Assembly (NCBI GenBank): GCA_037139415.1
Contig: JBAXGN010000045.1
Span: 1-44,629, forward strand
DNA length: 44,629 nt
Direction: 5' to 3'
Source: Verrucomicrobiota bacterium
GTDB lineage: Bacteria > Verrucomicrobiota > Verrucomicrobiia > Limisphaerales > Fontisphaeraceae
How positions within the stretch are numbered: position 1 is the stretch's first letter; each line of letters opens with the position of its first letter. This document shows, one piece after another, positions 8,987 to 30,997 of this stretch. The translations under genes were made by a program, and so were the position numbers. The notes under the pieces are model-generated. The model was not told where the DNA came from. It worked only from the letters and a program-made list of their open reading frames with translations, and made no database searches.

Positions 8987-9826
8987 ATGTTCTTTGCCCA
9001 ATTAAAAAACGAGCTACGCAAACTCTTCGGCAAAAAACGCACCTACATTGGGTTTGGCATGTTTTTCCTGGCGCAAAATGCCGTCAGCATCTCATTCAAG
9101 CTGACCACCGCCAGCCAGAAGGTTGCCAAATTTTTGGATGACAACGGTTATTTTGGCCAATCGTTCATCACCACCCTGACCATCGCGGTCATCATGATGT
9201 TGTTGATCGCCATCTTCCTGCTGCCGCTGTATGCCGCGCTGGTCGGGGGCGACCTGGTGGCCAAGGAGGTCGAGGATGGCACCATGCGCATGATTCTTTC
9301 GCGCCCCATTTCCCGTTTTCGCCTGCTGCTGGTCAAATGGCTGGCCGGCATCATTTTTTGCGTGACGCTGGTGCTGGTGCTGGCCGTGTTCGGGCTGCTC
9401 TCGGCCCGGGTCTGGTTCCCGTGGGGTGGCATGTTTGTAATGGCCCCGGAACACAACATCTTCAGCCTCTTTGATGCCAACGCCGGCCTGGGACGCTATT
9501 GCCTGGCCCATGTATTCTTGGTGGCGGAGGCCGGCTCGATTTTGACCCTGGCCTTCATGTTCTCCTGTTTCAACATCAAACCCGCCGCCGCCACGATTCT
9601 GGCCATGTCCATCATGCTGATCAGTTTCATCCTCCAACAAATCCCATATTTCCGGGACTATCAGAACTGGATGTTCACCTATCACCTGAATATCTGGATT
9701 TTGATCTTTGACCAGCACATCCCGTGGTGGCGCATTGGCCAATCCCTCAGCCTGCTGACAGCGTTTAACCTCACCTTCTTCATCATCGGCGCCTCCGTCT
9801 TTCATGTGCGCGACGTGAAATCGTAG
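8987..9826 (+). CDS. ABC-2 type permease
   Basis: The membrane partner of the preceding ATPase, 279 aa. It begins with the ABC-2 pattern of a cytoplasmic amphipathic start (MFFAQLKNELRKLFGKKRTY) and then about six hydrophobic helices (for example ITTLTIAVIMMLLIAIFLLP and LAGIIFCVTLVLVLAVFGLL). The GGDLVAKEVEDGTMRMILSRPISR segment between helices 2 and 3 is typical of NosY/ABC2_membrane_2-type permeases. The cargo is unknown. It is the last gene of the plus-strand unit beginning at 6850. Confidence 0.88.
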   Translation: MFFAQLKNELRKLFGKKRTYIGFGMFFLAQNAVSISFKLTTASQKVAKFLDDNGYFGQSFITTLTIAVIMMLLIAIFLLPLYAALVGGDLVAKEVEDGTMRMILSRPISRFRLLLVKWLAGIIFCVTLVLVLAVFGLLSARVWFPWGGMFVMAPEHNIFSLFDANAGLGRYCLAHVFLVAEAGSILTLAFMFSCFNIKPAAATILAMSIMLISFILQQIPYFRDYQNWMFTYHLNIWILIFDQHIPWWRIGQSLSLLTAFNLTFFIIGASVFHVRDVKS

Positions 9827-10144
9827 GGTGAAATATTTTGTAAGGTTACCCAATTTGCATTTTGTAACTGGTTATATTTTTCCTTCCATCCCTTCCAATT
9901 TTTGCCACACTACTCTCGGAAGCCACTGGTTTGGAGAATTTTACCAATGATGTTCGACGCCATACAATTAGTAAAAACACCGCAATACCCGCTCCTTCTG
10001 GATCGGGCCAGTCCATGTTGCTAACTTGTCATGATTGTTCCAGCCGCATGAATCAATAATCCCTTACTGAGGCGGACATCCACACCAAGTTTATCACCTC
10101 TTCATAATTCATCCCTCATCCTTTATTTTGGAGGCATTGAAACG
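9827..10144. other. gene-poor spacer between convergent units
   Basis: No coding sequence and no clear terminator was seen. The stretch is more AT-rich than its surroundings. Together with the adjacent DUF1016 remnant it looks like a degraded insertion or rearrangement point at the downstream end of the hydrogenase operon. Confidence 0.5.
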
Positions 10145-10313
10145 ATGAAAAAGAAAACCTCTGTCCAGAAAATAAGTGTACCTGCAAAAACGAATCCGGA
10201 CGGTTTCGCGCCGATCATTATCGAGGTCCTCCGTCTCATCCAGTCGGCCCGCCACGCCGCCGCGTCCACGGTCAACACGCTGCAGGTATTGACCAATAGA
10301 GGCGAAAATTTAA
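10145..10313 (+). pseudogene. N-terminal remnant of a DUF1016 (YhcG-type) nuclease gene
   Basis: A preserved start (GGAGG-like site GGAGGC about 15 nt upstream, then ATG) encodes residues resembling the DUF1016 N-terminal domain, with IIIEVLRLIQSARHAAASTV followed by NTLQVLTN. In intact members this helix continues into a motif like (F/Y)xIGRRI and then a PDDEXK nuclease-like domain of about 330 residues in total. Here similarity stops at LTN and the frame runs into the 3' end of the antisense hyfC-like gene. The family assignment is from memory of the motif; the truncation is directly visible. Confidence 0.6.
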
Positions 10314-11240
10314 TCAATACCCCAACCCGGCCAAGAGCAGGGCGAACAGGGCAATGACGACGAGCACGGCGTAGTAGCGGATCACTTGATCAATGCGGTA
10401 GCGCGCGTGCGTGGCGGCGACCAGGGTGACGAGGATCACCAGCAGGAAGACCTTGGCCCAGAACCAAACGACGTTTAGCGGAAACATCCAACCCTGCCCC
10501 CATGGGAAGAACAGCGCAACGAACAGCGCACTGTAGATGACCAACTTGGCCATCTGCGCGTATTTCAGCAGGGCCAGCTTGGGGCCGGAGTATTCCATCA
10601 TCGGCCCTTCCATCAGTTCGGTTTCCGCCTCGGCGGTATCGAAGGGGATGCGTTGGACGAACGCCTGGAAGGAGAGCAGCATCACGGCCAGCATGATCAG
10701 TCCCGACCATGGGAAATGGCTGGCGGCATAGACCGAGCCGCTGAACACGGTATCCAGGCGCAACGAGCCGACATGAGTGGAGCCGATGACGACGGCGATG
10801 ACGAAGAGGGGTTCCAGAGTGATGACGCTCATCATCTCGCGGCTGATGCCGAGTAGTGAGTAAGTGGACCCCGCCGCCAGTCCCGCCAACATCGTCGAAA
10901 TACCGCACAGCGCCAGCAGGTACACCAGCAGCACCACGTCGCTGGCGTCATTCAATGGTGCGGATGCTCCCATGGGCACCAGCCATGCCACGGTGAGTAT
11001 GGTTCCCAGCGACAGATAGACCGCGAACCGCTGCATCAGGGGCACTTCCCCGGATTCAATATCCTCCTTGCCCAATAATTTTAGCAGGTCGAAGTATGGC
11101 TGGCGAATTGGCGGCCCCTGGCGGGATTGGAGCTTGGCAGTCACTTTGCGCAGGATGCCCTCGAACAGCGGTGCGAGCAGCAGGACGATCAGTACGTTTG
11201 CCAGGCCCGCCAGGATGGCCAAAAGAATTTTTCCGGTCAT
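10314..11240 (-). CDS. hyfC: group 4 hydrogenase membrane subunit, HyfC/NuoH-like
   Basis: A membrane subunit that joins the peripheral arm to the proton-pumping arm in complex I and related hydrogenases. The product is 308 aa with about eight transmembrane helices. It has the HyfC/HycD signature loops: SRQGPPIRQPYFDLLKLLGK after helix 1, GISREMMS mid-protein, and PFDTAEAETELMEGPMMEYS before the last helices. The acidic loop residues that line the quinone/proton channel in NuoH have counterparts here. It is the last gene of the operon, starting 7 bp after the catalytic subunit. No terminator is seen after it. Confidence 0.92.
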   Translation of the reverse strand: MTGKILLAILAGLANVLIVLLLAPLFEGILRKVTAKLQSRQGPPIRQPYFDLLKLLGKEDIESGEVPLMQRFAVYLSLGTILTVAWLVPMGASAPLNDASDVVLLVYLLALCGISTMLAGLAAGSTYSLLGISREMMSVITLEPLFVIAVVIGSTHVGSLRLDTVFSGSVYAASHFPWSGLIMLAVMLLSFQAFVQRIPFDTAEAETELMEGPMMEYSGPKLALLKYAQMAKLVIYSALFVALFFPWGQGWMFPLNVVWFWAKVFLLVILVTLVAATHARYRIDQVIRYYAVLVVIALFALLLAGLGY

Positions 11241-11247
11241 AGTCGGT

Positions 11248-12951
11248 TTAAATTCCAGGGTTCAGATTGCCGCGCGCAGCACGGGTTTCATTGGCCCGGC
11301 GGATCAGTTCTTCCTGGGTGCACATGCGGTGTTCACCGGAGCGCAGGTCCACAATTTCCATGCGGTCTGTGCAGGAAAAACAGGGATCAATGCTGCCGAG
11401 CGAAATGGTCATGTCCGCCAGTTGCTGGTCTTTGATCATTGCCGGGATGCCCTGCAAATTCTGGTAGGTGGGAGCACGCACCCGCCAGCGGCGCGGTCGG
11501 TTGTTCTCGCCGGTGATGATAAAGTGATGGGACTCGCCGCGTGGCGCTTCCACGGAGGACATGCCCAGGCGGCCCACCGGCAATTCTTCGGTGAGGGCGA
11601 GTTGGATGGGGCCATCTTCCATCTTCTCTAGGCATTGCCGGATGATTTTGATGGTCTCGAAGACTTCCTTCATGCGCACGAGTATCCGAGACCAGACGTC
11701 GCCGCCTTGCTCGGTGATGACGTTGAATTCGACGCGGTCATAGGCCGCGTACGGATGGTCACGCCGGCAATCAATATCCGCGCCCGAGGCGCGCGCGACC
11801 GGTCCGATGAGCGCTGCGTTCTTTACCAGCTCGGGAGTGGCAATGCCCACGCCGGCAGTGCGGCGTTGGATGTTGCGGTCCTTGGAGACGGCGGCCACGA
11901 CGCTGCGCCACTCGGCTTCGAGCTTGTCCAGTACAGCGCGCAATTCCATTTTCAGCGCGGGGGTGAAATCCCAGCGCACTCCGCCGATGACGCACAGGGC
12001 GTAGGTTTTGCGGTTGCCGCTGATTTTTTCCGCGATCCACATGATGGGCTCGCGGATGCGAAAACTCTGCATGAACAGGGTGTCAAAGCCGACGATGTGG
12101 CAGGCCAGCCCGACCCACAGCAGATGGCTGTGCAGGCGCTCGATTTCGAGCATGATCGTGCGGATGTACTCGGCGCGCGGCGGGGGCTTGATGGCAGCGG
12201 CTTCTTCCACTGCCTGCGCGTAAGCGACGTTATGCACGCAGCCGCAGATGCCGCAGATGCGCTCCGCTGCCATGGGAATTTCGTTGTAGGTCAGCACGCT
12301 TTCGCCGAGCTTCTCGATGCCGCGATGGGCCATGAACCCCCGGTATTCGCAGCCGCGCACCATCTCGCCATCCACGTACAGGCGGAAGTGGGTGGGCTCA
12401 TCCAGGGTGGGATGAAACGGGCCGAACGGGACCACCACGCAGCCGGCGGGCGGTTCGTCGAACTTGAATTCGTTCTCGTCGTTGAACTCCGGCGGCACGA
12501 AATCCCAGCGCACATCCTTGCGCAGGGGATGATTGCCCTCGGGCCAGCCGTCCGGCAGCACGAGGCGCTTGGGATATTTATGTCCGACCGGTTCGATGCC
12601 CAGCAGATCGCGGAATTCGCGCTCGGCCCAGTTGGCGGCGGGCACGATGTCCGAGATGCTATCCACGCGCGGCTGGTCGCCGGGGAGATAGGTCAGCACG
12701 CTGCACAGGAGATGCAGGCGGTCGAAGGCGAAATGGTGGGCGACGAGGAATTTGCCAGAGACCGGACGATCGTCCGAGCCAATGCTGGTGACGTAGCGCG
12801 CGTCCATATCCCGAAACAGGAAGCGGCAGATTTCCTTGAGGGCGGCGGTCTCGACATAGAGGAACAGGCGGCCGGGGCCGGGCATGTCCGCCCGGGGGAT
12901 GGCCCCGCCGAATTTCTCCTTCAACTGATTCAGGATTTTATGTGCTCCCAT
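11248..12951 (-). CDS. hyfG: [NiFe]-hydrogenase catalytic subunit, NuoC-NuoD fusion (group 4)
   Basis: The large subunit carrying the NiFe(CN)2CO centre. In this 567-aa protein, residues 1-160 are a NuoC/30-kDa domain (NWAEREFRDLLGIEPVGH) and the rest is the large-subunit domain. L1 motif RICGICGCVH (231-240) supplies Cys233 and Cys236. L2 motif DPCFSCTDR (522-530) supplies Cys524 and Cys527. All four Ni ligands are therefore present, unlike NuoD of complex I. After Arg530 a 37-residue tail begins with MEIVDL, matching the Arg/Met bond cleaved by HycI in HycE, so the protein is predicted to be made as a precursor. Its maturation protease is encoded two genes upstream. No small subunit is encoded next to it. 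Confidence 0.93.
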   Translation of the reverse strand: MGAHKILNQLKEKFGGAIPRADMPGPGRLFLYVETAALKEICRFLFRDMDARYVTSIGSDDRPVSGKFLVAHHFAFDRLHLLCSVLTYLPGDQPRVDSISDIVPAANWAEREFRDLLGIEPVGHKYPKRLVLPDGWPEGNHPLRKDVRWDFVPPEFNDENEFKFDEPPAGCVVVPFGPFHPTLDEPTHFRLYVDGEMVRGCEYRGFMAHRGIEKLGESVLTYNEIPMAAERICGICGCVHNVAYAQAVEEAAAIKPPPRAEYIRTIMLEIERLHSHLLWVGLACHIVGFDTLFMQSFRIREPIMWIAEKISGNRKTYALCVIGGVRWDFTPALKMELRAVLDKLEAEWRSVVAAVSKDRNIQRRTAGVGIATPELVKNAALIGPVARASGADIDCRRDHPYAAYDRVEFNVITEQGGDVWSRILVRMKEVFETIKIIRQCLEKMEDGPIQLALTEELPVGRLGMSSVEAPRGESHHFIITGENNRPRRWRVRAPTYQNLQGIPAMIKDQQLADMTISLGSIDPCFSCTDRMEIVDLRSGEHRMCTQEELIRRANETRAARGNLNPGI

Positions 12952-12990
12952 GGTAAATCTTAAAGCTTCAAGTTTGTTCGCGCCATTCGG

Positions 12991-14919
12991 TCAGTGCCCC
13001 TTCGGCGTCTCGTTCGGCAGCGGGGCAGTTTCGCTGACTGGAACTGGTTTGGCAGGCCGGCCGCCAAGCCACGGCAGGAACCGGGTGAGTTCACGGTAGA
13101 AATTGTGCGCATGGTACCGGTTGTGTTCGGACTCCAGGGCGTAACCGCACAGCCACGGTTTGCTCACGCGCCGCACCGCTCCGCCCAGCTTGGATAGGAA
13201 CCGCACGAGGAGGAACATGGACGCCAGCACCGCCAGCGTGGCCAGCGGTGTCAACAGGGCCGCGTGATTGGTGCCGGTGATGGTGCCGTAATCGGCGATG
13301 ATCGGCATGGCATCCGCCAGGATGCTGCCCAGACCGGCCCGGCTGCTGTTCAGCGCGGCCTGCACCAGGTGGAACCCGGCGGCGGGCGCCAGCCCAAGGA
13401 AGATGCAGAGGGTGGCCAGATACAATTTCGGCAGGCGCATGGTCCAAGGCACTTCAAGCGACGTGGTTTGTGCCGCGCGTTCGGCCACCAGTTGGCTCGT
13501 GCGGGATAGGAACGAGGCCCCGAAGAACCGGATGAAGACCGCCAGCGTCACCGCGCTGGTCATGATGGCGGCGACGGCGAAGAAGGGGAGGAACCAAGCT
13601 TGGCTGCCGGCTTGAAGCGAGGAGACATACAGATTCCATTTGCTGGCGAAGCCGTTGGAGAGCGGCACGCCCGCGATGCAGAACGAGCCGATCAGTGTCA
13701 CGACGCCCGTGAATGGCATGTAACGCATTAGTCCGCCGATTTTGCCGATATCCTGGGTGCCGGTGGCATGCAGCATGGAACCGGCGTTCAGGAACAGCAG
13801 GCTCTTGAATAACCCGTGGTTGAGAGTATGCATTAGCGCGCCGTACAGGCCCACGGCGGCCAGCCCTGCAAGCGGTGAATTGATCAGGGTAAGGCTGATG
13901 CCCAACCCCAGCAGGATGTAGCCGATCTGCCCGATGCTGCTGTACGCCAGCAGTCGTTTGGATTGCGTCTGCGTCAGGGCTTGCACCGTGCCGGTGACCA
14001 GGGTGATGACACCCAGCGTGGCGATGGCCGTACCCCAAACGTGTAGTGGGCAAGCGCCCAAGGCGTCTTGCGGGGTGAGCCACAGGAACGTCCGAATGAG
14101 GCCGTAGATGCCGGTCTTGATCATGACCCCGGAGAGCAGGGCGCTCACGGGCGACGGCGCGGCGGGGTGCGCATCCGGCAGCCACATTTGCCCGAACGGC
14201 CACATGCCAGCTTTGATTCCGAAGCCGATCAGGAACAGCAGGAATGCGGCAGCGACGGTGGCCGGGTTGGATTGCAGCAACGCCGGCAAGTGCTCGCGGA
14301 TGACATCGAAATCATACTTCAACATCGCCTGCCCGGGCGGGAGCCCCTTGACCTGGATGAGCAGTGCGCCGATCATGGTGATGGCACAGGCCAGTTGCAT
14401 CATGAACATGTATTTCCAGGCGGCGCGGCGATGTTCCGGCTTATGGTGTTCAAAGCGGATCAACAGAAACGACGGGATGGTCATCACCTGCCAGAAGACG
14501 AAAAAGAAGAACATTGCATCGGTGGTGGTGACCAGGCCGATCATGCCCGCCACAAACAACAGTAGGCTGGGGTAATAGCGCGCCACGCTGTGCTCGCGGT
14601 AATGCTCCAGGTAGGGAATGGAATAGAGCAGGGCAGGGGGCACTACCAGGCCGATCAAAATCAGAAAGACCGCACTCAAACCATCCACCGCGATGCGCAG
14701 GGCGAAGCCCATGGATTTCCAGACCCAGATTTCCACCGGGTGCGACGGCCCGTGCCAGAGCGACTGGGTGGCGGCATACAAAATCATGCTGGAGGCGGCG
14801 CAGGCGACGATGAATGCCACCCATCCGGCGAGTTGGCGCGCACGCGCCAGCACTGCCGTCAGGACAGCTCCGGCCACGCATACCACCATGGCCCAAACAA
14901 TGATCCAGGATAATGTCAT
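12991..14919 (-). CDS. hyfB: proton-translocating antiporter-like subunit HyfB/NuoL-M family
   Basis: A Mrp-antiporter/complex I pump-type subunit in the cytoplasmic membrane, 642 aa, about 14-16 helices. The Proton_antipo_M core is clear: GFGIKAGMWPF (Lys236, counterpart of the essential TM7 Lys), then WLPDAHPAAPSPVSALLSG and VMIKTGIYGLIR. In the TM5 motif, read as FFVFWQVMTIPSF, position 144 is Gln (codon CAG), where NuoL, NuoM and HyfB-type proteins carry a conserved Glu needed for proton transfer. Its start overlaps the stop of the protease gene by 4 bp, indicating translational coupling. Confidence 0.9.
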   Translation of the reverse strand: MTLSWIIVWAMVVCVAGAVLTAVLARARQLAGWVAFIVACAASSMILYAATQSLWHGPSHPVEIWVWKSMGFALRIAVDGLSAVFLILIGLVVPPALLYSIPYLEHYREHSVARYYPSLLLFVAGMIGLVTTTDAMFFFFVFWQVMTIPSFLLIRFEHHKPEHRRAAWKYMFMMQLACAITMIGALLIQVKGLPPGQAMLKYDFDVIREHLPALLQSNPATVAAAFLLFLIGFGIKAGMWPFGQMWLPDAHPAAPSPVSALLSGVMIKTGIYGLIRTFLWLTPQDALGACPLHVWGTAIATLGVITLVTGTVQALTQTQSKRLLAYSSIGQIGYILLGLGISLTLINSPLAGLAAVGLYGALMHTLNHGLFKSLLFLNAGSMLHATGTQDIGKIGGLMRYMPFTGVVTLIGSFCIAGVPLSNGFASKWNLYVSSLQAGSQAWFLPFFAVAAIMTSAVTLAVFIRFFGASFLSRTSQLVAERAAQTTSLEVPWTMRLPKLYLATLCIFLGLAPAAGFHLVQAALNSSRAGLGSILADAMPIIADYGTITGTNHAALLTPLATLAVLASMFLLVRFLSKLGGAVRRVSKPWLCGYALESEHNRYHAHNFYRELTRFLPWLGGRPAKPVPVSETAPLPNETPKGH

Positions 14920-15395
14920 GCTAAAATTTTATGGTTCTGCATCAGAACGAGCAGTGATTCCAATGTGGTTTGCAGAGCAGGGGATAGTCCGGCGTCCACC
15001 TGCAGCGACTGCGGCTGAATGCCGAGCAACCAGACCCGGCAACGACTTTGTGATTCCACCATGCGCGCCAGCAATCCGAGGGAAAGTTTATGGGTGGATA
15101 CCTGCGGATAGCGGTTTTGGATGCCGGCGCTGTCCAGCAAGACCACATCGCCCGGATTGCCGCCGAAGTCCACGGTGTCCACCAACAGCAGGTGTGCAAA
15201 GCCATCCTCGGCCAGGCGCGGCAACCAGCGTTCCGGGCTGGTACCCGCGATGCAGACATCCTCTCGCCCCGCCTCGCTCAACGTCTCCGCCAGACGCACG
15301 CCAATGGCGTCGTCGCCGTACCCGGCATTGCCCAGGCCAATGACGCAAGTGCGTTGTGCCAGCAGGGCTTCGAGTTGTTCGTGGAGGTTGTTCAT
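14916..15395 (-). CDS. hycI: hydrogenase maturation protease (HycI/HyaD family)
   Basis: A nickel-dependent endopeptidase that removes the C-terminal tail of the hydrogenase large subunit once Ni is inserted. The 159-aa product has the family glycine-rich start (IGLGNAGYGDDAIGVRL, residues 19-35), the second metal-binding acid in LLLVDTVDFGG (about 70-79), and the histidine in STHKLSLGLL (His102). A later GIQPQS segment is also characteristic. It lies between the flavoprotein and HyfB genes. Its predicted substrate is the NuoC/D fusion with the 37-residue tail in the same operon. Confidence 0.9.
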   Translation of the reverse strand: MNNLHEQLEALLAQRTCVIGLGNAGYGDDAIGVRLAETLSEAGREDVCIAGTSPERWLPRLAEDGFAHLLLVDTVDFGGNPGDVVLLDSAGIQNRYPQVSTHKLSLGLLARMVESQSRCRVWLLGIQPQSLQVDAGLSPALQTTLESLLVLMQNHKILA

Positions 15396-15403
15396 GGCGG
15401 CGC

Positions 15404-16255
15404 TTAAATATCCTCACCCAACTGGCGGATTTGCTCGAAAGTGAACACGGGCCCATCCACGCAGACGTACGCGACCCCGATGCAGCAATGGCCGCATTTA
15501 CCCACGCCGCATTTCATATAACGTTCCAAGGTGGAGACGATGTCGGTTTCCTTGAAGCCCATGGCCAGCAGATCCTTGATGACAAAGCGGAACATGATCG
15601 GCGGACCGCAGACAAACGCAGTGGTGTTTTCCACGGGTACCTGCACACCCGGTTTCTTGAACAGGCTGCCGACCACGCCGACGTTGCCCTTCCAGGTCGC
15701 ATCGCCCCGATCCACCGTCAGGTGGCACTCGCAGCCATTGGATTTACCCCATTCCTGCAACATCGCCTGGTACATCAGGTCTTTGGGTTGCTTGGAACCG
15801 TAAAAGACCTGGATCTTGCCGTATTTTTCGCGGTGTTTTAGGGCGTAGATGATGCAGGAACGCAACGGAATCAGCCCGATGCCACCCGCCACAAAAACCA
15901 GGTTGCGCCCGTAATACTGTTCCATGGGGAAGCCGTTGCCGTACGGTCCACGCACGCCGAATTCGTCTCCCGGTTGGAGTGCATGCAACGCCGCAGTGCA
16001 ACTGCCGACCTGTCGGATCGTGAAAAAGACCTCGTCTTCCGTGGGACTGGGCGGCAGCGACGCGGGAAATTCTCCGGTGCCGAATAGGGAGACCTGCGCA
16101 AACTGGCCCGGACGGAACTTGCGGAATTTCTCCTGCTCGGCGGCGTCCTTGAAGTGCCAGAAGAAGGTTTTGACCTCGTCAATCTCCTGCACCACGCGAT
16201 CCAATACCGCGATCTTGGGCTCGTAAATATTATACTGGTTCTGGTTTTGCGTCAT
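15404..16255 (-). CDS. FAD/NAD(P)-binding oxidoreductase, sulfhydrogenase gamma (HydG/AsrB) type
   Basis: A ferredoxin-NADP reductase-like electron-transfer subunit, 283 aa. The FAD-binding motif RPGQFAQVS is at about 48-56, and GPYGNGFP follows. The nucleotide-binding VAGGIGLIPLRS is at about 122-133 and CGPP at 216-219. The C-terminal cysteine cluster (Cys249, Cys254, Cys257, Cys265 in MKCGVGKCGHCCIG) binds a [2Fe-2S] centre, as in PyrK, HydG of Pyrococcus sulfhydrogenase and AsrB. It should pass electrons between NAD(P)(H) and Fe-S carriers. With the HydB-like protein it forms the soluble input/output module of this complex. The name is unrelated to the FeFe-hydrogenase maturase HydG. Confidence 0.92.
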   Translation of the reverse strand: MTQNQNQYNIYEPKIAVLDRVVQEIDEVKTFFWHFKDAAEQEKFRKFRPGQFAQVSLFGTGEFPASLPPSPTEDEVFFTIRQVGSCTAALHALQPGDEFGVRGPYGNGFPMEQYYGRNLVFVAGGIGLIPLRSCIIYALKHREKYGKIQVFYGSKQPKDLMYQAMLQEWGKSNGCECHLTVDRGDATWKGNVGVVGSLFKKPGVQVPVENTTAFVCGPPIMFRFVIKDLLAMGFKETDIVSTLERYMKCGVGKCGHCCIGVAYVCVDGPVFTFEQIRQLGEDI

Positions 16256-16275
16256 GCCAATGCCTCGTGCTTCGG

Positions 16276-17379
16276 TCAGGTTGAGTTGGCCACTTTCATG
16301 GAGTCAGGTTTATCTTGTTCGGCGGTGGCGCGGCGGATCATCTCGACCACGCTGGGCATGCCGACATCCCCGTGGCATACGGCGGCGCAGCGCCCGCAGC
16401 CCACGCAGGCCATGGATAGCTCGCGCTGGATGAAATAATGCGCCAGTTTTCGGAACACCCGGCGGTTGCGGCGGTCATGCACGGCGCGGCGCGGGTTGAA
16501 CCCGCCCGCCATGCGCGTGAAGCCGCCTAGTGCGCAGGCGTCCCACAGGCGCATGCGCTCCACTTCGCCGCTGTTCCCGACTTTGCGATCGGACACGGTG
16601 AAACAGGTGCAGGCGGGGCAGACGTAGGTGCAGCCGCCACATTCCAGGCAACGGTTGCCAATTTCCCCCCAGGTTTTTTCCAGGATTTTTCCCTGGCTGA
16701 TGTACCGGACGGTGGCGGAGAACCAGCCGGTGGTGACCTTGAACCGCTTGCGCACTTCCTCCAGAATGACGCGCCGGCGCTCAACGTGTTGGGGAGTGCC
16801 CGGTTTGAAAATCGGGTCGGCAAAGAGCGTCTCGCCTTTCGCGCTGCCAGCTACCGCCATGAATTCGCCCTGCCCGAGATCCATCAATTGCAGGTCAAAA
16901 TGATCGCGGGCCGCCGGGCCGGTATCGGAACACAGGCAATAGCATTCGTCGTTGATATCCACCGCGGTGTCCGTGCACACCATGTTCACCAGGAACAGGT
17001 TTTGGCGGCGCTTCTCGTAATAGACATCCCGGAAGTCGCGTCCCAGAAAGAAGCGGTCAAGATGCTGAATGCCGGCGACGTCGCAGGAGCGGATGCCGAA
17101 GATGGCGCGCTTCCGCTCGTCGTAGTTGGGTTCCACGCTGATTTTGCCGTCCGTCTTTTGAAAACGGAACAGCCGTTCGATCTGCGGGAAGACGAACCGC
17201 TTGGGCGGATGGTAGGGATTGGCGAGATGAAGCTGGATCTGGTTTTGATTCGCGTCGGTGACGACGTCGAAATAGCTGTCGCGCCCGTGGCCGACAAAGG
17301 GCGCGATGACCTCGTGTTCCTGGCGGAGCAGATCCACAATCTTCATCACGTCGGCTTGGGCAATGATTCGGGCTCGCAT
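16276..17379 (-). CDS. 4Fe-4S dicluster protein, sulfhydrogenase beta (HydB/AsrA) type
   Basis: An iron-sulfur electron-transfer subunit, 367 aa, soluble. Residues 1-230 form the HydB-type N-terminal region (FGIRSCDVAGIQHLDRFFLG). Two [4Fe-4S] motifs follow: CLECGGCTYVC (Cys244, 247, 250, 254) and CVGCGRCAAVC (Cys325, 328, 331, 335), each continued by a proline or histidine-bearing loop. Pyrococcus HydB and AsrA of anaerobic sulfite reductase share this architecture. The gene begins 2 bp after the molybdopterin protein stop and is followed 20 bp later by the flavoprotein gene. It probably relays electrons between the flavoprotein and the FDH-like or hydrogenase subunits. Confidence 0.9.
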   Translation of the reverse strand: MRARIIAQADVMKIVDLLRQEHEVIAPFVGHGRDSYFDVVTDANQNQIQLHLANPYHPPKRFVFPQIERLFRFQKTDGKISVEPNYDERKRAIFGIRSCDVAGIQHLDRFFLGRDFRDVYYEKRRQNLFLVNMVCTDTAVDINDECYCLCSDTGPAARDHFDLQLMDLGQGEFMAVAGSAKGETLFADPIFKPGTPQHVERRRVILEEVRKRFKVTTGWFSATVRYISQGKILEKTWGEIGNRCLECGGCTYVCPACTCFTVSDRKVGNSGEVERMRLWDACALGGFTRMAGGFNPRRAVHDRRNRRVFRKLAHYFIQRELSMACVGCGRCAAVCHGDVGMPSVVEMIRRATAEQDKPDSMKVANST

Positions 17380-17381
17380 GG

Positions 17382-19418
17382 TCAGGCCTTTTCCAAACGC
17401 ACGTAGAACGGGCGGCTTAAATTTCCGAGGTTGAAGGTGGGGGCGTCGCCGCGCACTTCCTTTTCGATTTCTTTGACGAAGAACGGCACCACGATGGTGC
17501 CCGTGCGCACCTCGCGCGTGACGCGCGCCGCCGTGGCATAGGCGCCCCGGTGCCCCACCACCCGGATTTTCGCGCCGTCGCGGATCCCCAGTTGCTTGGC
17601 ATCCTCATCATTGATTTCCACGAATCCATCCGGGTAATCCAGCAGCAGCACCCGCAACTCGCGCTTGAGTGTTTCGCTGTGCTTGATCAATACGTTCTGA
17701 TGCCAGTAATACAGGGCGTGGCCGAAGATTAGCGCCATGGGATAGTCCGGCGGTGCCTTGCCCAGATCTTCCGGCTTGGGCACCGGCACAAACTTGAACG
17801 GCTTGCCCGGGATGCCGTCCTCGTGCAGATAGGTGGTGCCGAGTGGTTTGTCGGTGGTGCAGGGCCATTGGCGACCGTAATCCCGCGCCAGATTCTCATG
17901 CGAGGCGCCACTGTAAAACGGCACCGCCCGTCCGATCTCTTCCATGATTTCAGCGGCGGATTGGTAGCCCCAGTCCGCACCCAACGCGTGTGCGATTTCG
18001 GTGATCTGTTTCCAGGCCGGCACCGGCCCGCTGGGCGGTTCGATGATCTTATTGGCCATCTGAATCCGGCGATCGGTGCTGGTGAACGTGATTTGTTCTT
18101 CGCCGAAGGCCACCACCGGCAGCACCACATGCGCGTAACGCATCGTGCTGGTCTCGAACAGGTGCTGCACGACCACCAGTTCCATTTTTTCCAGGGCGTG
18201 CGCCGCGTCGCAAAACGTCGCGGTCGTCACCGGGTCGTACCGCAGCAGCCAGAGCCCCTTGATTTTGCCATCCACCGCGTTCTCCATGATGCGGCGGGCT
18301 TCCACACCCGGCGTGGTGGGCAACGGCGTTTTCCAGAGTTGCTCGAAGCGCTGCCGGGCGCTGGCGTCCTCCACGGGTTGGTAACCGGGCAGGCGATCAT
18401 GCAACATGCCCATGTCGCAGACGCCTTGCAGGTTGTTATGCTCCGTCAGCGCAAAAATGCCCGAGGCCGGCCGCCCGATGTTGCCGGTCATCAGCGCCAG
18501 GTTGATCATGCTGCGCACGCTGTTCTTGCCGCGCGCCTCCACGCCGGTGGAATACAGGATGGCTGCGCTCTTGGCCTTGGCGTACGTCACCGCCGCCGCC
18601 TCGATCAATTCCGCCGGGACGCCGCAAATCTCCGCCGCGTTCAACAGGTCATATTGGTGTGCCTCGCTCGCAAACGCCTCGAATTCCCGGCAATGATGCC
18701 GGATGAACTGGTGATCCATTAGGCCGCGATCCAGGATGATCTTGGCCATTGCGCCGTACAGCGTCACGCGGTTGCCGGGCCGGATCAGCAGCAGATGATC
18801 TGCCAGTTCGGCCAGGCGATGCCGCCGGGCATCAATGACAATGAGTTTGGCCCCGGCCAGTTTGGCACGAATCACCCAGCCGCCAATCGTGGGCATCTGC
18901 TGGGCGAGGTCCACACCATCCACGATGATGACTTCGCTTTTGGCCAGTTCGCCGATGGAGTTGGTGGAAGCCGGACAGCCCAGCATATCCAGCAGGATAT
19001 CCACCGAATTATTGCTGTACACCCCGGTGCCATGCTCCACGTTGTTGGTGCCGATGACGGACCGCGCCAGCTTTTGCAGCAGGTAGCTTTCCTCGTTGGA
19101 ACAGCGCGGTGAATTGCAGAAGGCCAGCGCATCCGGTCCATGCTTCTTCCGAATCTCATTCAGGCGGGTGACGATGAACTGGATGGCCTCCGGCCATTCC
19201 ACCGGTTCGAGCTTGCCATTCTTGCGCACCATTGGGTGCGTCAACCGGTCTGGTGAACTGGCAACCTCATGGACATTCCAACCGCGCACGCAGATGCGTC
19301 CCCGGTTGCTTGGATGCGTCATGCTGGGGTACACCCCGGTGACGCGATTTCCCGTGGTTTCGAGGTAGATACCGCAACCCACCCCGCAAAACGTACACGT
19401 TGTTAGTTTATGGGCCAT
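17382..19418 (-). CDS. formate-dehydrogenase-like molybdopterin protein lacking FDH catalytic residues
   Basis: A member of the FdhF/DMSO-reductase family, 678 aa from the ATG at 19418. That start lies seven residues before the first Fe-S cysteine; the open frame reaches 19523 without similarity. An N-terminal [4Fe-4S] site (Cys8, 11, 15, 43) is intact. The bis-MGD fold segments are recognisable (INLALMTGNIGRPASG, NNLQGVCDMGML, and a C-terminal cofactor domain). The catalytic positions are changed. The FDH motif of the form RV(U/C)H reads GVYS (Tyr134, Ser135). The active-site Arg of NPxRGQNN is Thr325 (ALTEHNNLQG). The Lys of CVKG is Arg (CVRG). There is no in-frame TGA. It is first in the operon. 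Formate oxidation is therefore unlikely; a NuoG-like structural/electron role or another substrate is inferred. Confidence 0.9.
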   Translation of the reverse strand: MAHKLTTCTFCGVGCGIYLETTGNRVTGVYPSMTHPSNRGRICVRGWNVHEVASSPDRLTHPMVRKNGKLEPVEWPEAIQFIVTRLNEIRKKHGPDALAFCNSPRCSNEESYLLQKLARSVIGTNNVEHGTGVYSNNSVDILLDMLGCPASTNSIGELAKSEVIIVDGVDLAQQMPTIGGWVIRAKLAGAKLIVIDARRHRLAELADHLLLIRPGNRVTLYGAMAKIILDRGLMDHQFIRHHCREFEAFASEAHQYDLLNAAEICGVPAELIEAAAVTYAKAKSAAILYSTGVEARGKNSVRSMINLALMTGNIGRPASGIFALTEHNNLQGVCDMGMLHDRLPGYQPVEDASARQRFEQLWKTPLPTTPGVEARRIMENAVDGKIKGLWLLRYDPVTTATFCDAAHALEKMELVVVQHLFETSTMRYAHVVLPVVAFGEEQITFTSTDRRIQMANKIIEPPSGPVPAWKQITEIAHALGADWGYQSAAEIMEEIGRAVPFYSGASHENLARDYGRQWPCTTDKPLGTTYLHEDGIPGKPFKFVPVPKPEDLGKAPPDYPMALIFGHALYYWHQNVLIKHSETLKRELRVLLLDYPDGFVEINDEDAKQLGIRDGAKIRVVGHRGAYATAARVTREVRTGTIVVPFFVKEIEKEVRGDAPTFNLGNLSRPFYVRLEKA

Positions 19419-19623: not shown

Positions 19624-20475
19624 TCAAGTGTTGCCACGCCGGTAGCCAAGCGGCGTTTCCCCGGTGTAACGGCGAAAGACGTAACTAAAATACTGGCTGG
19701 AGGAGAATCCAACGGCGAAGGCGATTTCGGTAATGGAATCCTGGGTGGTGCTGAGCAGGGTTCGGGCCTGTTCCACGCGATAACGCAACAAGTAATCATT
19801 GGGCGTGGTACCCGTGACGGTTTTGAATAGGTCGAACATGCGCGCCCTGCTCAGCCCGATATGTTTCACCAGGTCGTTCATCCGCACCGGTTCCTGGTAA
19901 CGCCGGTGCAGGTATGCTTTGGCGGCAGCCACGAGTTCATCTGGTCGCGCGGTGGTGGGCGTGCTCAACAGGCGAGTGGCTTCGATGAGGGCGGCACACG
20001 CCAGGTTGCGCAAGGAGGCCCGAATGATGGGGTCTGGCGACGCGGGGGAATACGCGCCCATTTCATCCAGCAACCGCGCGATGCTGGTTTTCAATTCACG
20101 ACTCATCATACGCACGCTCAGCGCGGCATGCGAGAGGGTGGTTTGTATTTGATGCAACGTCGTTTTTTCAAATGGCGTATGGCGCGGGTTGCCGTTGGCC
20201 AAGGTGGCGCATTCAATGCCGCAAATCGTGGAGGGCATGCGCACATTGTGGACCCCGCGATGAATGACGCGGGACGGCACCACCACAAAATGTCCGCCGG
20301 TTAGTTCGCAAGTAGCCGCCTCCTTGACCTCGTAGGCGGTGGCGCCTTTCAACAGGAACAGCAGTTCAAAGCCAGCGTGCGAATGCCAGGGGATGTACCG
20401 CGTGCTGTGGCAGCGGATCGCCCCGATATGCGCAATGAGCGGCAGGCCAATGTCAATGCCTCTAATTTCTTCCAT
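19624..20475 (-). CDS. AraC-family transcriptional regulator
   Basis: A 283-aa regulator with an N-terminal cupin sensor (HSHAGFELLFLLKG) and a C-terminal double helix-turn-helix. The second HTH has the AraC signature, including DSITEIAFAVGFSSSQYFSY followed by FRRYTGETPLGYR. The ATG at 20475 was chosen; the upstream frame opens with TTG at 20511. It is divergent from the DapA-family lyase gene, with a 97-bp intergenic region carrying an ATTGTC/GACAAT dyad, so it probably controls the plus-strand sugar cluster. It also precedes the hydrogenase operon on the same strand, but the 205-bp gap makes that link weaker. Confidence 0.92.
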   Translation of the reverse strand: MEEIRGIDIGLPLIAHIGAIRCHSTRYIPWHSHAGFELLFLLKGATAYEVKEAATCELTGGHFVVVPSRVIHRGVHNVRMPSTICGIECATLANGNPRHTPFEKTTLHQIQTTLSHAALSVRMMSRELKTSIARLLDEMGAYSPASPDPIIRASLRNLACAALIEATRLLSTPTTARPDELVAAAKAYLHRRYQEPVRMNDLVKHIGLSRARMFDLFKTVTGTTPNDYLLRYRVEQARTLLSTTQDSITEIAFAVGFSSSQYFSYVFRRYTGETPLGYRRGNT

Positions 20476-20512
20476 GTTCGATTCGTAGACCAGCCTGCCT
20501 TGCCTGTTCAAA

Positions 20513-26437: not shown

Positions 26438-27745
26438 ATGGCTCTCCAAAATGAAATGAACAGTAAGATTCCATCGGCCAACGGTGGTGAAGCCGCTCCA
26501 GTGCATAACTCATCCGTTACAAAATGGGTGGTAATCCTCATGGTTGGCGCATTGATTGCGGCGGCAGCGTATTGGTGGAGTACCCATAATGCACCGGCCG
26601 AAAAAAAGCCTTCAGGCTTTGCGCGCGGAGAAATGCCGCCAGTGCCAGTCGTGGCGGGTGTGGTCGCCGAAAAGGATGTACCGATTTACCTGGAAGGGTT
26701 GGGTACGGTTCAGGCATTCAATACGGTCACGGTCCGTGCCCGGGTGGATGGGCAGATTGTGAAAGTGGCCTTTACGGAAGGTCAAGAGGTTCATGCTGGC
26801 GACGTTCTTGTGCAAATAGATCCAGACCCTTACCGTACCGTATTGGATCAGGCGGTCGCCAAGAAGGGGCAGGATGAAGCCCTGCTCGGAAACGCAAAGG
26901 CAGACCTGAAACGCTATGGTGATTTGCTGGCGAACGAGGGGGTTACGCAACAAGTCTTCGACACGCAGAAAGCACAGGTAAATCAGTTGGAGGCGGCGGT
27001 GAAAGCGGACCAAGCCACCATTGAGAGCGCAAAAGTCCAGCTTGCCTATACCACCATTGTCTCTCCCATTGATGGGCGCATCGGCATGCGCTTGGTGGAT
27101 CAGGGCAACATGGTTCGCGCCAGCGACGCGACTGGTCTGGTGGTAATCACCCAGTTGAAACCAATCTCCGTCGTCTTCACATTGCCCGAACAAACGCTGG
27201 GGAAAATTCAAAAACAAGCATCCTTGGCCGCTGATCTCACGGTTTTCGCGATTGGGCGGGATAACGTCAATGTGCTGGGCGAAGGTAAACTCACCGTCAT
27301 TGACAACCAGATAGATACCACCACCGGCACTATCAAGCTGAAAGCCACTTTCCCGAATACCGATTTGCGTCTCTGGCCGGGGCAGTTCGTCAACGCGCGG
27401 CTGTTAGTGAACGTTCGCAAAGGCAGTGCCGTGGTGCCGGCGTCCGTGGTGCAGCGCGGGCCGGAAGGCGCCTTTGCATTTGTGATCAAGGAAGATCAGA
27501 CGGTGGAAATTCGGCCGATCAAAGTCGCCCAGATTGAACAGGGGGAAGCGTTGATCGAGGATGGCCTTCATTCCGGAGAACGCGTGGTGGTGGACGGTCA
27601 GTACAAGTTGCAGAAAGGGTCCAAGGTCAAAACGGCCGACGCATCCGGCTCTGGTCAGGGGGGTGAGCGTGGAGGTCGCCGGCCCAAGTCTGCGGGTGCG
27701 AGCGATGATGGCGGTACTCGTGGAACCAAGAAAGCCAAGCCGTGA
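26438..27745 (+). CDS. mdtA: RND efflux periplasmic adaptor subunit (MdtA/AcrA family)
   Basis: The membrane fusion protein of a tripartite efflux pump, 435 aa. One N-terminal anchor (about 28-47) precedes the lipoyl/barrel-sandwich half motif (VRARVDGQIVKVAFTEGQEV), an alpha-hairpin with QVNQLEAAVKADQATIESAK, and the second lipoyl half (TTIVSPIDGRIGMRLVDQGN). The beta-barrel and membrane-proximal domains follow (GQFVNARLLV). The last 40 residues are low-complexity Gly/Lys/Arg. The order and motifs resemble E. coli MdtA, which works with two different RND proteins, as here. The next gene overlaps its stop (GTGA). Confidence 0.9.
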   Translation: MALQNEMNSKIPSANGGEAAPVHNSSVTKWVVILMVGALIAAAAYWWSTHNAPAEKKPSGFARGEMPPVPVVAGVVAEKDVPIYLEGLGTVQAFNTVTVRARVDGQIVKVAFTEGQEVHAGDVLVQIDPDPYRTVLDQAVAKKGQDEALLGNAKADLKRYGDLLANEGVTQQVFDTQKAQVNQLEAAVKADQATIESAKVQLAYTTIVSPIDGRIGMRLVDQGNMVRASDATGLVVITQLKPISVVFTLPEQTLGKIQKQASLAADLTVFAIGRDNVNVLGEGKLTVIDNQIDTTTGTIKLKATFPNTDLRLWPGQFVNARLLVNVRKGSAVVPASVVQRGPEGAFAFVIKEDQTVEIRPIKVAQIEQGEALIEDGLHSGERVVVDGQYKLQKGSKVKTADASGSGQGGERGGRRPKSAGASDDGGTRGTKKAKP

Positions 27746-30700
27746 ACATCTCCGAGCCATTCATTCATCGCCCGATTGCCACCTCGCTCTTGATGGCAGG
27801 CATCCTCTTGATGGGGGCGCTGGGCTATACGCTACTGCCGATCTCATCGCTGCCGCCGGTGGATTTCCCGACCATTCAAGTCACCGCACAGTATCCTGGG
27901 GCGAGTCCCGAGGTGATGGCGTCGTCTGTCACCACACCGTTGGAGCGGCAATTCGGCCAGATCAGCGGGCTGGCGCTGATGACGTCGGTGAGTTCCTTTG
28001 GCAACGCCAGTATCACGCTGCAATTCGTGCTCGACCGTGATATTGATGCGGCGGCACAAGACGTTCAGGCGGCCATGAATGCCGCTAACGGGGTGCTGCC
28101 GAAAATGCCCAATCCGCCGACCTATAGCAAAGTGAATCCGGCAGATACGCCTATCCTTACGCTTCAAATCAGTTCGGACTCCCTCCCGCTGGAAAAGGTC
28201 AACGACTTGGCGGATACGCTGATTGCCCAGAAGCTCAGTGAAGTGACTGGGGTCGGGCTTGTCACCATCGAAGGCAACCAGAAGCCTGCGGTACGGGTTC
28301 GCATTAATCCCCTGGCTATAACCGCGCAAGGACTCAGTCTTGAAGACGTGCGGGCCGCGTTGGTGCAAAACAACGTCAATGCCCCCAAGGGTAGCTTCGA
28401 TGGAAAACGTCAGTCGTACTCCATCAACGCCAACGATCAGATTTTTTCTGCCACAGAATTTCGCGATGTCATCATCGCCTATAAAAAAGGTTCTCCGGTG
28501 CGTCTGCGGGATATTGGCGATGTGATTGACAATGTCGAGAATGTGCGTCTGGCGGGCTGGGTGGACCGCAAACCGGCGGTGATCCTGGATATTCAGCGCC
28601 AGCCCGGGGCGAACATCATTGAAACTGCCAACCGGGTAAAGGCATTGTTGCCGAAGTTGCGCTTGTCCATTCCCCCGTCGGTGACGATCTCCATTCTCAC
28701 TGACCGCACGGAAACGATTCGTGCCTCTGTGGCTGACGTGCAGTTTACGCTAGTATTGGCAGTTTTACTGGTGGTTATGGTGATCTTCGTGTTCCTGCGA
28801 AAATTCTGGGCGACCGTTATCCCCAGCGTGGCCCTGCCGCTGACCATTGTGGGCACGTTTGGCATCATGCATTTGGTTGGGTTCAGTCTGGATAACCTAT
28901 CGCTCATGGCACTGACGATTTCCACGGGGTTTGTGGTGGATGACGCCATCGTGATGATTGAAAATATTGTACGCTATATTGAAGCGGGAGAGCGTCCGAT
29001 GGCAGCGGCACTAAAGGGCGCGAAGCAGATCGGGTTCACCATTATTTCGTTGAGTTTTTCGCTGATCGCAGTGTTCATTCCGCTGATTTTCATGACCGGT
29101 ATTGTGGGGCGGCTGTTCCGGGAATTTGCGATCACCTTAAGCGCGGCAGTAGTGGTTTCGGCCATCGTATCGCTGACGTTGACGCCAATGATGTGCGCGC
29201 GACTGCTGACGGTGGATGATAAGTCGAAGCACGGACGCTTGTATCTGGCCACCGACCGGATGTTCCAAGGACTGCTTGACGCGTATGATCGCAGCCTGCA
29301 ATGGGTGCTAAGACATCAGGCACTCACGTTGACCGTGGCCATTGCCACGATGGTGGCCACCGTGTGGCTTTATGTCATCATTCCCAAGAGTCTGTTGCCA
29401 CAGCAGGACACGGGGTTGATCATCGGCGTTACAGATTCAGCGCAGTCCATTTCGTTCAAATCCATGGTCGAACGACAACGCACCATTGCAGAAATCGTGC
29501 GTCAGGATCCGGACGTGCTAAGCGTGGCATCGTTTGTTGGCGCTGGCACCGTGAATGCGACCGTAAATTCGGGCCGATTATACATCAATCTCAAGCCGCG
29601 CGATCGCCGCAAAGCCAGTGCGGATGAGATCATTGGCCGGTTGCGCGCGGCAACGGAACCGGTGGAGGGCATTTCCTTGTTTATGCAGGCGGCGCAAGAT
29701 GTGCAGATTGACAGCCGTGTCAGCCGCACTCAATTTCAATATACGCTGCAAGATGCAGATGTGGTCGAACTCTCTAATTGGGCACCGAAACTGTTGGCCG
29801 CGCTGCGGAACAAGCCTGAATTGGTGGATGTCGCCACGGATCAACAATCGGGGGGCCTTCAGGTCAAAGTGGAAGTGGACCGCGAGAAAGCGTCACGTTT
29901 TAACGTCCTTACGCAAGCTATTGATGACACCCTCTATGACGCCTTCGGGCAACGCCAGGTCTCGACCATCTTCACACAACTCAACCAATACCGGGTCATC
30001 CTTGAAGTGGACCCCCAATATCAACTTTCTCCGGAGTCTTTGAGTAAAATCTACGTCAAGTCTGCGACCGGGCAGATGGTGCCTTTGAGCGCCTTTGCGA
30101 CCGTGAGCATTGCCACTGCGCCGCTAACCATCGTTCATCAGGGGCAGTTCCCGGCGGTGACGCTGTCCTTTAATCTCGATTCGGCCAGTTCACTCGGTGA
30201 GGCCGTGAAGGCCATTCAGGCTGCGGAAAAGGAAATCGGTCTGCCGGAGACGGTGGTGGCCACGTTTAGCGGTAGCGCCGCCGAGTTTCGCTCATCCCTG
30301 GAAAGTGAACCGTTCCTGATCCTTGCCGCCATTATCGTGATCTACATTGTATTGGGGGTGCTTTATGAGAGCTATGTGCATCCCATCACAATTCTATCGA
30401 GCCTGCCGTCGGCCGGCGTGGGTGCGCTCCTGGCACTGATGGTGACGGGCCAGAGTCTTTCGCTCGTTGCGCTCATTGGCATCATTCTACTGATTGGCAT
30501 TGTGCAAAAAAATGCGATCATGATGATTGATTTTGCGCTGGATGCCGAGCGCACGGAAGGATTGCCGCCGGCGAAATCCATTTACCAAGCGTGTCTGCTG
30601 CGGTTCCGGCCAATCATGATGACCACCATGGCGGCGCTGCTCGGCGCGTTGCCCTTGGCGTTGCAGGAAGGCACTGGTTCCGAACTGCGCCGTCCGCTCG

Positions 30701-30891
30701 GCATTGCCATCGTGGGCGGCCTGTTGCTTTCGCAACTCATCACGCTCTACACCACGCCGGTCGTTTATCTCTATCTGGATCGGTTGGGGCGCTGGGCTCG
30801 GGGTGGACGCGCGGTTACGCGGGTGGAAGAAACCGAAGGAATGGCTACCGCGCCGGCTTTCACCGGGCCAAACCCGCCTGTCCAATTATGA
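27742..30891 (+). CDS. mdtB: RND efflux transporter, MdtB-like
   Basis: An inner-membrane proton-driven drug exporter, 1049 aa, full length with 12 transmembrane helices and two large periplasmic loops. The start MNISEPFIHRPIATSLLMAG is typical of MdtB/MdtC. The TM4 proton-relay pair is present in STGFVVDDAIVMIENI, and the TM10 Lys region in GIVQKNAIMMIDFA. GTG at 27742 overlaps the adaptor stop by 4 bp. The second RND gene follows after a 106-bp spacer of TTCG-type repeats. E. coli MdtB and MdtC form a heterotrimer in which one subunit type is transport-competent. Both genes here retain the Asp-Asp pair. Confidence 0.92.
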   Translation: MNISEPFIHRPIATSLLMAGILLMGALGYTLLPISSLPPVDFPTIQVTAQYPGASPEVMASSVTTPLERQFGQISGLALMTSVSSFGNASITLQFVLDRDIDAAAQDVQAAMNAANGVLPKMPNPPTYSKVNPADTPILTLQISSDSLPLEKVNDLADTLIAQKLSEVTGVGLVTIEGNQKPAVRVRINPLAITAQGLSLEDVRAALVQNNVNAPKGSFDGKRQSYSINANDQIFSATEFRDVIIAYKKGSPVRLRDIGDVIDNVENVRLAGWVDRKPAVILDIQRQPGANIIETANRVKALLPKLRLSIPPSVTISILTDRTETIRASVADVQFTLVLAVLLVVMVIFVFLRKFWATVIPSVALPLTIVGTFGIMHLVGFSLDNLSLMALTISTGFVVDDAIVMIENIVRYIEAGERPMAAALKGAKQIGFTIISLSFSLIAVFIPLIFMTGIVGRLFREFAITLSAAVVVSAIVSLTLTPMMCARLLTVDDKSKHGRLYLATDRMFQGLLDAYDRSLQWVLRHQALTLTVAIATMVATVWLYVIIPKSLLPQQDTGLIIGVTDSAQSISFKSMVERQRTIAEIVRQDPDVLSVASFVGAGTVNATVNSGRLYINLKPRDRRKASADEIIGRLRAATEPVEGISLFMQAAQDVQIDSRVSRTQFQYTLQDADVVELSNWAPKLLAALRNKPELVDVATDQQSGGLQVKVEVDREKASRFNVLTQAIDDTLYDAFGQRQVSTIFTQLNQYRVILEVDPQYQLSPESLSKIYVKSATGQMVPLSAFATVSIATAPLTIVHQGQFPAVTLSFNLDSASSLGEAVKAIQAAEKEIGLPETVVATFSGSAAEFRSSLESEPFLILAAIIVIYIVLGVLYESYVHPITILSSLPSAGVGALLALMVTGQSLSLVALIGIILLIGIVQKNAIMMIDFALDAERTEGLPPAKSIYQACLLRFRPIMMTTMAALLGALPLALQEGTGSELRRPLGIAIVGGLLLSQLITLYTTPVVYLYLDRLGRWARGGRAVTRVEETEGMATAPAFTGPNPPVQL

Positions 30892-30997
30892 ATTCAAACT
30901 TGGGAATTTTGTTTGCGCTTTCTCCGAAATTCGTAATTCGGATCTCGGCTTTCTTTCGGCGTTCGTGGTTCGGAGTTCGGACTTCTTTTGGACGCTC
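30892..30997. repeat. TTCG-rich degenerate repeat spacer between the two RND genes
   Basis: The spacer is made of approximate repeats of the type AATTCGTAATTCGGA, GGCGTTCGTGGTTCGG and AGTTCGGACTTC. Similar TTCG/CGAA arrays are dispersed between genes in Verrucomicrobia and Planctomycetes (recalled, not searched). The spacer breaks an otherwise coupled operon. Its open frame is continuous with the next gene but is not regarded as coding. Confidence 0.5.

Follow-up and report, generated by a model that had tools for sequence, protein, structure and literature searches.

A Verrucomicrobiota operon predicted to encode an NAD(P)H-linked group 4 [NiFe]-hydrogenase with a formate-dehydrogenase-like subunit that has lost its formate site

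The window analyzed here, a 44,629-nucleotide stretch of DNA from a Verrucomicrobiota bacterium (assembly GCA_037139415.1, contig JBAXGN010000045.1), carries on its minus strand, between 19418 (or 19523) and 10314, seven tightly packed open reading frames (ORFs) that encode, in this order, FdhL, HydB, HydG, HycI, HyfB, a NuoC/D fusion and HyfC. Together with NuoI and NuoB, two genes carried by a different contig of this genome, they would specify an ion-coupled NAD(P)H:H+ hydrogenase with a core like that of formate hydrogenlyase (FHL), a HydG-HydB diaphorase and a dead formate dehydrogenase (FDH) as scaffold. We assign this reading a probability of roughly 60%. The coordinates and labels that an earlier note on this DNA had given to the seven genes are borne out by the ORFs and by Pfam and NCBIfam, which agree with every label; most NCBIfam matches lie under their equivalog cutoffs, and all genes but HycI were also named by their nearest solved structures. 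The seven-gene complex described in that note is real in its genes and incomplete as a set, with NuoI and NuoB lying on contig C39.

The core is that of a predicted group 4 [NiFe]-hydrogenase, with the CxxC motifs, a NuoB-type small subunit (on C39) and NuoH- and antiporter-like subunits all present. The large subunit, the NuoC/D fusion (11248..12951; minus strand, as for all operon genes; PF00329, PF00346 and PF00374), retains RICGIC and DPCFSC and thus all four Ni/Fe cysteines, which are found in 17/17 large subunits tested from both clades of the family (A and B, see below). It matches E. coli HycE over residues 7-555 (E 1.6e-125). In a tree with three group 4a references and without 4b, 4c, 4f and 4g references, the family large subunits form a clade (support 96/91) with HycE, HyfG and an Azospirillum enzyme as its neighbours (99/97). 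A Cys-less, long-branched protein from contig C62 of the source genome falls on this branch too, and the tree carries a warning of long branches. The four cysteines and the position beside HycE and HyfG uphold the earlier view of the protein as a hydrogenase and not an Ehr or NuoD protein. An assignment to Ehr, the Cys-less group 4 relatives, was rejected because all four cysteines are present. Group 3b enzymes have a HydA/HydD hydrogenase pair together with HydB/HydG, and a group 3b (sulf)hydrogenase was likewise rejected: HydB and HydG are present, but the large subunit is of NuoC/D type. Complex I does not fit, as no NuoE or NuoF was found among the operon proteins and the NiFe cysteines are kept.

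The remaining hydrogenase genes are consistent with this placement. HyfC (10314..11240; PF00146), a HyfC/HycD/NuoH-like membrane subunit, matches E. coli HycD (E 8.9e-39). HyfB (12991..14919; PF00361, E 1.4e-51), a HyfB/HycC antiporter-like membrane subunit, matches MbhH and HycC, and its top NCBIfam model is PRK06521 (hydrogenase 4 subunit B), under cutoff. The lysines in transmembrane helices 7 and 12 (TM7 and TM12) are kept in 49/49 family HyfB sequences, whereas E. coli HycC is without the TM7 lysine. HycI (14916..15395; PF01750, with TIGR00072 above cutoff) is a hydrogenase maturation protease, and one HypD gene is found in the source genome.

The most unusual subunit is FdhL (17382..19418), whose start is probably 19418 (MAHKL..., compare relatives such as locus L015), the ORF list beginning it at 19523. 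The protein is full length, with all three FDH Pfam domains (PF04879, PF00384 and PF01568) above cutoff and a TIGR01591 (Fdh-alpha) score of 580.9 bits, under the cutoff of 666.25. It has an intact [4Fe-4S] cysteine motif and a dead formate site: with the residue numbers of E. coli FDH-H, selenocysteine (Sec) or Cys140 is replaced by Tyr, His141 by Ser and Arg333 by Thr. To place these changes, 42 clade A sequences (the window and 41 others) and five clade B sequences were aligned with seven FDHs that have an intact site, the fragmentary L051 FdhL being excluded from the residue count. The four cluster cysteines are retained in 42/42 clade A and 5/5 clade B proteins. Sec/Cys140 is lost in all 47: clade A has Tyr (38), Phe (3) or His (1) in its place, and clade B has Gly (4) or Thr (1). 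None of the 47 has Arg333 or Arg138, Lys44 is replaced by Arg in 47/47, and Arg581 is lost in 42/42 and 4/5, respectively. His141 is lost in 42/42 clade A proteins and in 1/5 of clade B, the other four having an aligned His. The seven intact FDHs have 78 invariant positions, of which clade A keeps 55 and clade B keeps 44 (present in at least 80% of sequences). Thus, the degenerate FDH-like protein of the earlier note is confirmed across the whole sampled family, and the FDH trait of HydDB group 4a (Sec/Cys140, His141 and Arg333) is not found in FdhL.

The AlphaFold2 model of FdhL has a mean predicted local distance difference test score of 84.7, falling to about 51-65 over the first 50 residues, and a predicted template modelling score of 0.89. 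The ratio of nonsynonymous to synonymous substitution rates (dN/dS) of FdhL is 0.045-0.135 in six close pairs, some with a common member, compared with 0.023-0.095 for NuoC/D. FdhL is therefore under purifying selection, and a pseudogene was rejected on these values and the intact frames. In a tree with the seven intact FDHs, the FdhL proteins of clades A and B group together to the exclusion of these FDHs (100/100, rough bootstrap), so the loss of the formate site probably predates the split of the two clades.

Between FdhL and the hydrogenase genes lies a predicted NAD(P)H module. HydB (16276..17379; Fer4_22), an AsrA-type iron-sulfur subunit with two [4Fe-4S] motifs, is matched by the ShyB, AsrA and HydB models, each under cutoff, and its best match in the Protein Data Bank (PDB) is the beta subunit of P. 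furiosus sulfhydrogenase 1 (E 4.8e-35). HydG (15404..16255; PF00175 and PF10418), an AsrB-type subunit predicted to bind flavin adenine dinucleotide (FAD), NAD(P)H and a [2Fe-2S] cluster, has as its best PDB match the gamma subunit of the same enzyme (E 1.7e-56). Its GGxGxxP core and four [2Fe-2S] cysteines are present in 42/42 aligned sequences, and the cluster cysteines of HydB in 24/24; both alignments include a Photobacterium protein. In Photobacterium sp. DA100 (L111), a putative formate transporter gene, labelled from its sequence, is followed by FDH, HydB and HydG; the Cys, His and Arg of the formate site are intact in this FDH, and no hydrogenase match was found beside the genes in the 20 kb inspected. 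This operon indicates that the peripheral module exists alone, presumably as a stand-alone, NAD(P)-linked FDH, and the hybrid is most simply read as an FDH-HydB-HydG module added to a formate-hydrogenlyase core.

A NuoB-type small subunit is required in a group 4 hydrogenase, and in relatives NuoI, of roughly 174 aa, and NuoB, of roughly 178 aa, are separate genes directly after HyfC. At this site the window has a gap (9827..10313) with no such gene: tblastn found neither NuoB/HycG nor NuoI/HycF in the window at E up to 1e-3, and a small subunit hidden after HyfC was dropped as a candidate, with no match in the 9827-10313 stretch. The genome holds six NuoB-like genes, none of them on the contig of the window. 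A matching, intact NuoI-NuoB pair lies on contig C39 (G000:C39) at about 9682-10782, with NuoB at 10246-10779. Its proteins are 74% (NuoI) and 90% (NuoB) identical to those of L015, and the best solved matches of NuoB are MbhJ and HycG. All nine ORFs, counting the window and C39, are intact in the source genome. The pair (L059, 5683-6783) is an orphan flanked by unrelated genes, and reflects either misassembly or a genuine division of an operon that is fixed elsewhere; the two break points have only short chance matches in common.

Other hydrogenase-related genes of this genome were also seen. Among the five other NuoB-like genes, that on C43 is within an Ech set and that on C62 is in a Cys-less NuoC/D set (L056, 3770-6216), which comprises a Cys-less NuoC/D of 529 aa and a fused NuoI-NuoB protein of 279 aa; no membrane subunit was recognised next to it in the stretch read. 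NuoB-like genes on C57 and C33 adjoin Cys-less NuoC/D-like genes. The fifth lies on C136 (L061, 1274-7861) in an HdrC-HdrB-HdrA-MvhD-MvhG-MvhA set of group 3c type, named from the sequences.

To analyze the distribution of the gene set, the NuoC/D protein was scanned against 84,980 species genomes, which yielded 42 loci. Identity is 71-82% for 40 of these; L054 and L055 (31-32%) were excluded from the synteny count. Loci were added from two genomes of the same family, from an order search (17) and from a sister clade in Acidobacteriota (five). A total of 64 loci were scanned, of which 10 represent the same contig twice, leaving 54 distinct loci. All nine genes occur in order in 38 of the 54. 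Contig ends cut a further 12, including L040, which is also without HyfB. HycI gave no match in three of the 54 (L032, L132 and L139), and HyfB none in one (L046). The full order was found in 16 of the 17 order-search loci, the remaining one (L101) being without HyfB. FdhL-HydB-HydG precede the hydrogenase in 47/47 loci with an uncut upstream side, and NuoI-NuoB follow HyfC in 48/48 loci with an uncut downstream side. The module genes are thus conserved together, and the gene order that the earlier note proposed to look for in other genomes recurs in dozens of loci across several phyla; a chance grouping of genes was rejected for this reason.

The loci are labelled as Verrucomicrobiota, Acidobacteriota, Methylomirabilota, Planctomycetota, Lentisphaerota and Armatimonadota, the last three being represented by one draft genome each, which might be contaminated; for L037, the label Omnitrophota is doubtful. 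Clade B is a deeper sister clade in Acidobacteriota, with NuoC/D proteins 52-56% identical to those of clade A. Family NuoB was found in one of the 387 genomes of the Verrucomicrobiota phylum sample (the window's own; E up to 1e-70), in 20/293 genomes of the order sample, including the source genome and two of its family, and in 15/297 of the Acidobacteriota sample. Two of these 15 (G679 and G683) are clade A and 13 are more distant; five of the 13 distant loci were inspected, and all five have the same order, two with no HycI match. This patchy distribution makes gain, loss and transfer of the gene set likely.

Variants were noted at some loci. L030 and L033, a pair that includes one Methylomirabilota locus, have just upstream of FdhL a large subunit that we take to be HoxH-like, and in L030 a protease-like gene lies between it and FdhL. 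L135 (G683:C531), a third variant, combines a more divergent Mo-protein with HydB (33%), HydG (51%), HycI and a HyfD-like gene; it was not used as evidence because the Mo-protein ORF runs past the contig edge.

The closest known system is E. coli FHL (Hyc/Hyf, group 4a), the source of the nearest tree references. It shares the fused NuoC domain, HycD/HycC-like membrane parts, a NuoI/NuoB-like relay, the HycI protease and an FDH-family subunit. In contrast, here the FDH site is lost, HydB replaces HycB, the HydG NAD(P)H-flavin subunit is added and the nine-gene set has no HycH. P. furiosus sulfhydrogenase 1 (group 3b) supplies the best solved-structure matches of HydB and HydG in its beta and gamma subunits, whereas the core here is of group 4, predicted to be membrane-bound, with a NuoB-type small subunit and not HydA/HydD. 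The Photobacterium operon has the same three-gene peripheral module, but with an intact formate site and the putative formate transporter upstream. The N-module of complex I (NuoEFG) is alike in its NAD(P)H-flavin input, its complex I-like core and its non-catalytic FDH-family subunit, a comparison drawn partly from the accessible text of PMC9474812 and partly from general knowledge; it differs in that HydG (of ferredoxin-NADP+ reductase (FNR) type) and HydB belong to other families than NuoF and NuoE, and in having a quinone site instead of a NiFe site. According to the accessible part of PMC9474812, on the structure of E. coli FHL, FdhF and NDUFS1 likely joined their complexes independently.

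We found no characterisation of this complex in a literature search to which subscription journals were mostly out of reach, and the sole similar gene set found is that of Saganbacteria RX5A. As described in the accessible text of PMC6349859, this group 4 hydrogenase region has Mrp-like subunits, CooF, AsrA, AsrB and a molybdopterin oxidoreductase that could not be assigned as an FDH, and the hydrogenase is termed 'enigmatic' and proposed to have an Mbh-like role. The two sets are alike in the group 4 hydrogenase, AsrA, AsrB and the molybdopterin oxidoreductase, and unlike in the Mrp antiporter-like subunits and CooF, the comparison being by description and not by sequence. In view of this set, the 'undescribed' of the earlier note holds only in part. 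In the accessible text of PMC8965080, Thermococcus onnurineus Fdh3 is an NADP-linked archaeal FDH with Fe-S proteins; it is unlike the present system in being an active, cytoplasmic FDH with an NAD(P) subunit modelled on NfnI and a hydrogenase-free gene cluster. HydDB, in the portion of PMC5037454 available, describes group 4a as FHL and group 3b as NADP-coupled. A group 4 FHL mentioned for an Aminicenantes draft genome in the accessible part of PMC5459899 might belong to this family.

We then propose a model for the enzyme, of which the window encodes seven of nine genes (six subunits and the protease) and the second locus NuoI and NuoB. It would be a membrane-bound, FHL-like [NiFe]-hydrogenase in which NAD(P)H, whether NADH or NADPH, takes the place of formate as the electron gate. 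A hydride from NAD(P)H would pass to FAD in HydG, and electrons would move from the [2Fe-2S] cluster of HydG through the two [4Fe-4S] clusters of HydB to the [4Fe-4S] cluster of FdhL and/or the clusters of NuoI, and then through NuoB to the NiFe site in NuoC/D. There H2 would be formed or, in reverse, oxidised, and the redox reaction may be coupled via the NuoH-like HyfC to ion movement in the antiporter-like HyfB. FdhL would not oxidise formate; as a cluster-bearing scaffold it may dock HydB-HydG onto the hydrogenase, the role that NuoG, another FDH relative, has between NuoEF and the remainder of complex I. By the potentials in the accessible text of PMC9304861, NADH to H2 is uphill under standard conditions; the enzyme would accordingly operate at low H2, draw on the ion gradient or oxidise H2. 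At high H2 it would need to spend the gradient to discharge NAD(P)H, or reverse and make NAD(P)H from H2.

Several observations weigh against this model. The evidence is genomic, and co-occurrence is no proof of a single complex. The TM5 glutamate of antiporter-like subunits is essential in NuoM, where the TM7 and TM12 lysines also have roles; it is present in E. coli HycC and HyfB and replaced by Gln in 49/49 family HyfB proteins, which weakens a simple pumping claim. HyfB was not found beside L040 and L046 among the 54 loci. L042, with 244 bases from HyfC to the contig end and no NuoI match, may be a second exception, besides the window, to the placement of NuoI-NuoB after HyfC. In the source genome the operon is divided over two contigs of a 378-contig draft assembly, for which misassembly is a possible cause. 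This division would also suit a reading in which no single complex exists and either a soluble HydB-HydG-FdhL diaphorase is co-transcribed with a ferredoxin-linked hydrogenase, or the window copy is decaying after loss of NuoI-NuoB. An Mbh-type group 4 enzyme of P. furiosus does take electrons from ferredoxin, according to the accessible text of PMC9474812. We nevertheless find this very doubtful, given the nine intact ORFs, the 90% identity of NuoB to that of L015 and the joint presence of module and hydrogenase genes in two clades as divergent as A and B.

Two other readings concern the electron partner and FdhL. Five distinct loci (L015, L016, L018, L019 and L050) carry HdrC-HdrB immediately before FdhL, which hints that these loci have a different electron partner; in L018 the upstream side showed no HdrA. 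HydG may then take NAD(P)H while a second donor, low-potential or thiol (ferredoxin or HdrBC), enters at, for example, FdhL or NuoI, and in such a confurcating or bifurcating machine this second donor would drive H2 formation from NAD(P)H. The uphill reaction from NADH alone at standard H2 (PMC9304861, accessible text) would favour such an arrangement, as would the HydB-HydG pairs of L136 and L137, which sit beside HdrC, HdrB and HdrA-like genes (HdrA named by reading), apparently a further use of the NAD(P)H module alongside Hdr. We consider it unlikely, since HdrBC was found in just five of the 42 distinct loci that contain Hdr or have 1 kb or more of sequence before FdhL, other flanking gene families recur in at most four loci each, and the HydG domains are those of a single-flavin FNR-type subunit. 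FdhL may, on the other hand, be changed and not dead, binding a Mo/W-pterin and acting on another substrate, so that the complex would be an X:H+ or X:NAD(P)+ lyase. The retained FDH fold leaves room for another substrate or a bound pterin: the FDH domains score above cutoff, and the best fold match of the model is E. coli FDH-H (template modelling score 0.89/0.84). In clade A, a Glu right after the Arg333 position is fixed in 42/42 proteins, and a Cys at 141, beside the lost Sec/Cys140, is present in 25/42; given a shift of the loop it could substitute for Sec/Cys140, but it is not a conserved residue. The residues at 140 (Y/F/H in clade A, G/T in clade B), 141 (C/S/R/G/A, H/L) and 333 (T/A/S/N/M/C, T/P) vary within and between the clades, unlike a preserved new active site, and Lys44, Asp478 and, in 46/47, Arg581 are also lost. 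This makes a changed active site quite improbable to us, and the dead scaffold remains our preferred role for FdhL.

Other features surround the operon. An AraC-type regulator gene (19624-20511; Pfam) lies upstream, and genes labelled from their sequences as an ABC transporter lie downstream on the opposite strand. Elsewhere in the window are a tandem array of a 21-base unit (51-251) and an efflux set (26438-35619) with an HlyD-type adaptor, two AcrB-type pumps and an outer membrane OEP protein.

If our proposal is true, the operon would encode a membrane enzyme that ties NAD(P)H directly to H2. To our knowledge, the other enzymes with such a direct link are soluble group 3 hydrogenases and bifurcating [FeFe] hydrogenases. 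A genome that has an operon of this type may be mistaken for an FHL carrier, because general family models show nothing unusual in the FDH and group 4 genes. We give an even chance to a bolder view, in which this is a second, independent design of complex I: a formate-oxidising FDH-HydB-HydG module would have been grafted on an FHL-type hydrogenase, the formate site would have died and the FDH would have stayed as a bridge. The outcome would be an ion-pumping NAD(P)H:H+ machine able to run in both directions, present in several phyla and as yet uncharacterised. The family would also offer a present-day counterpart to the emergence of NuoG, in which descent from an FDH is a relic within complex I.

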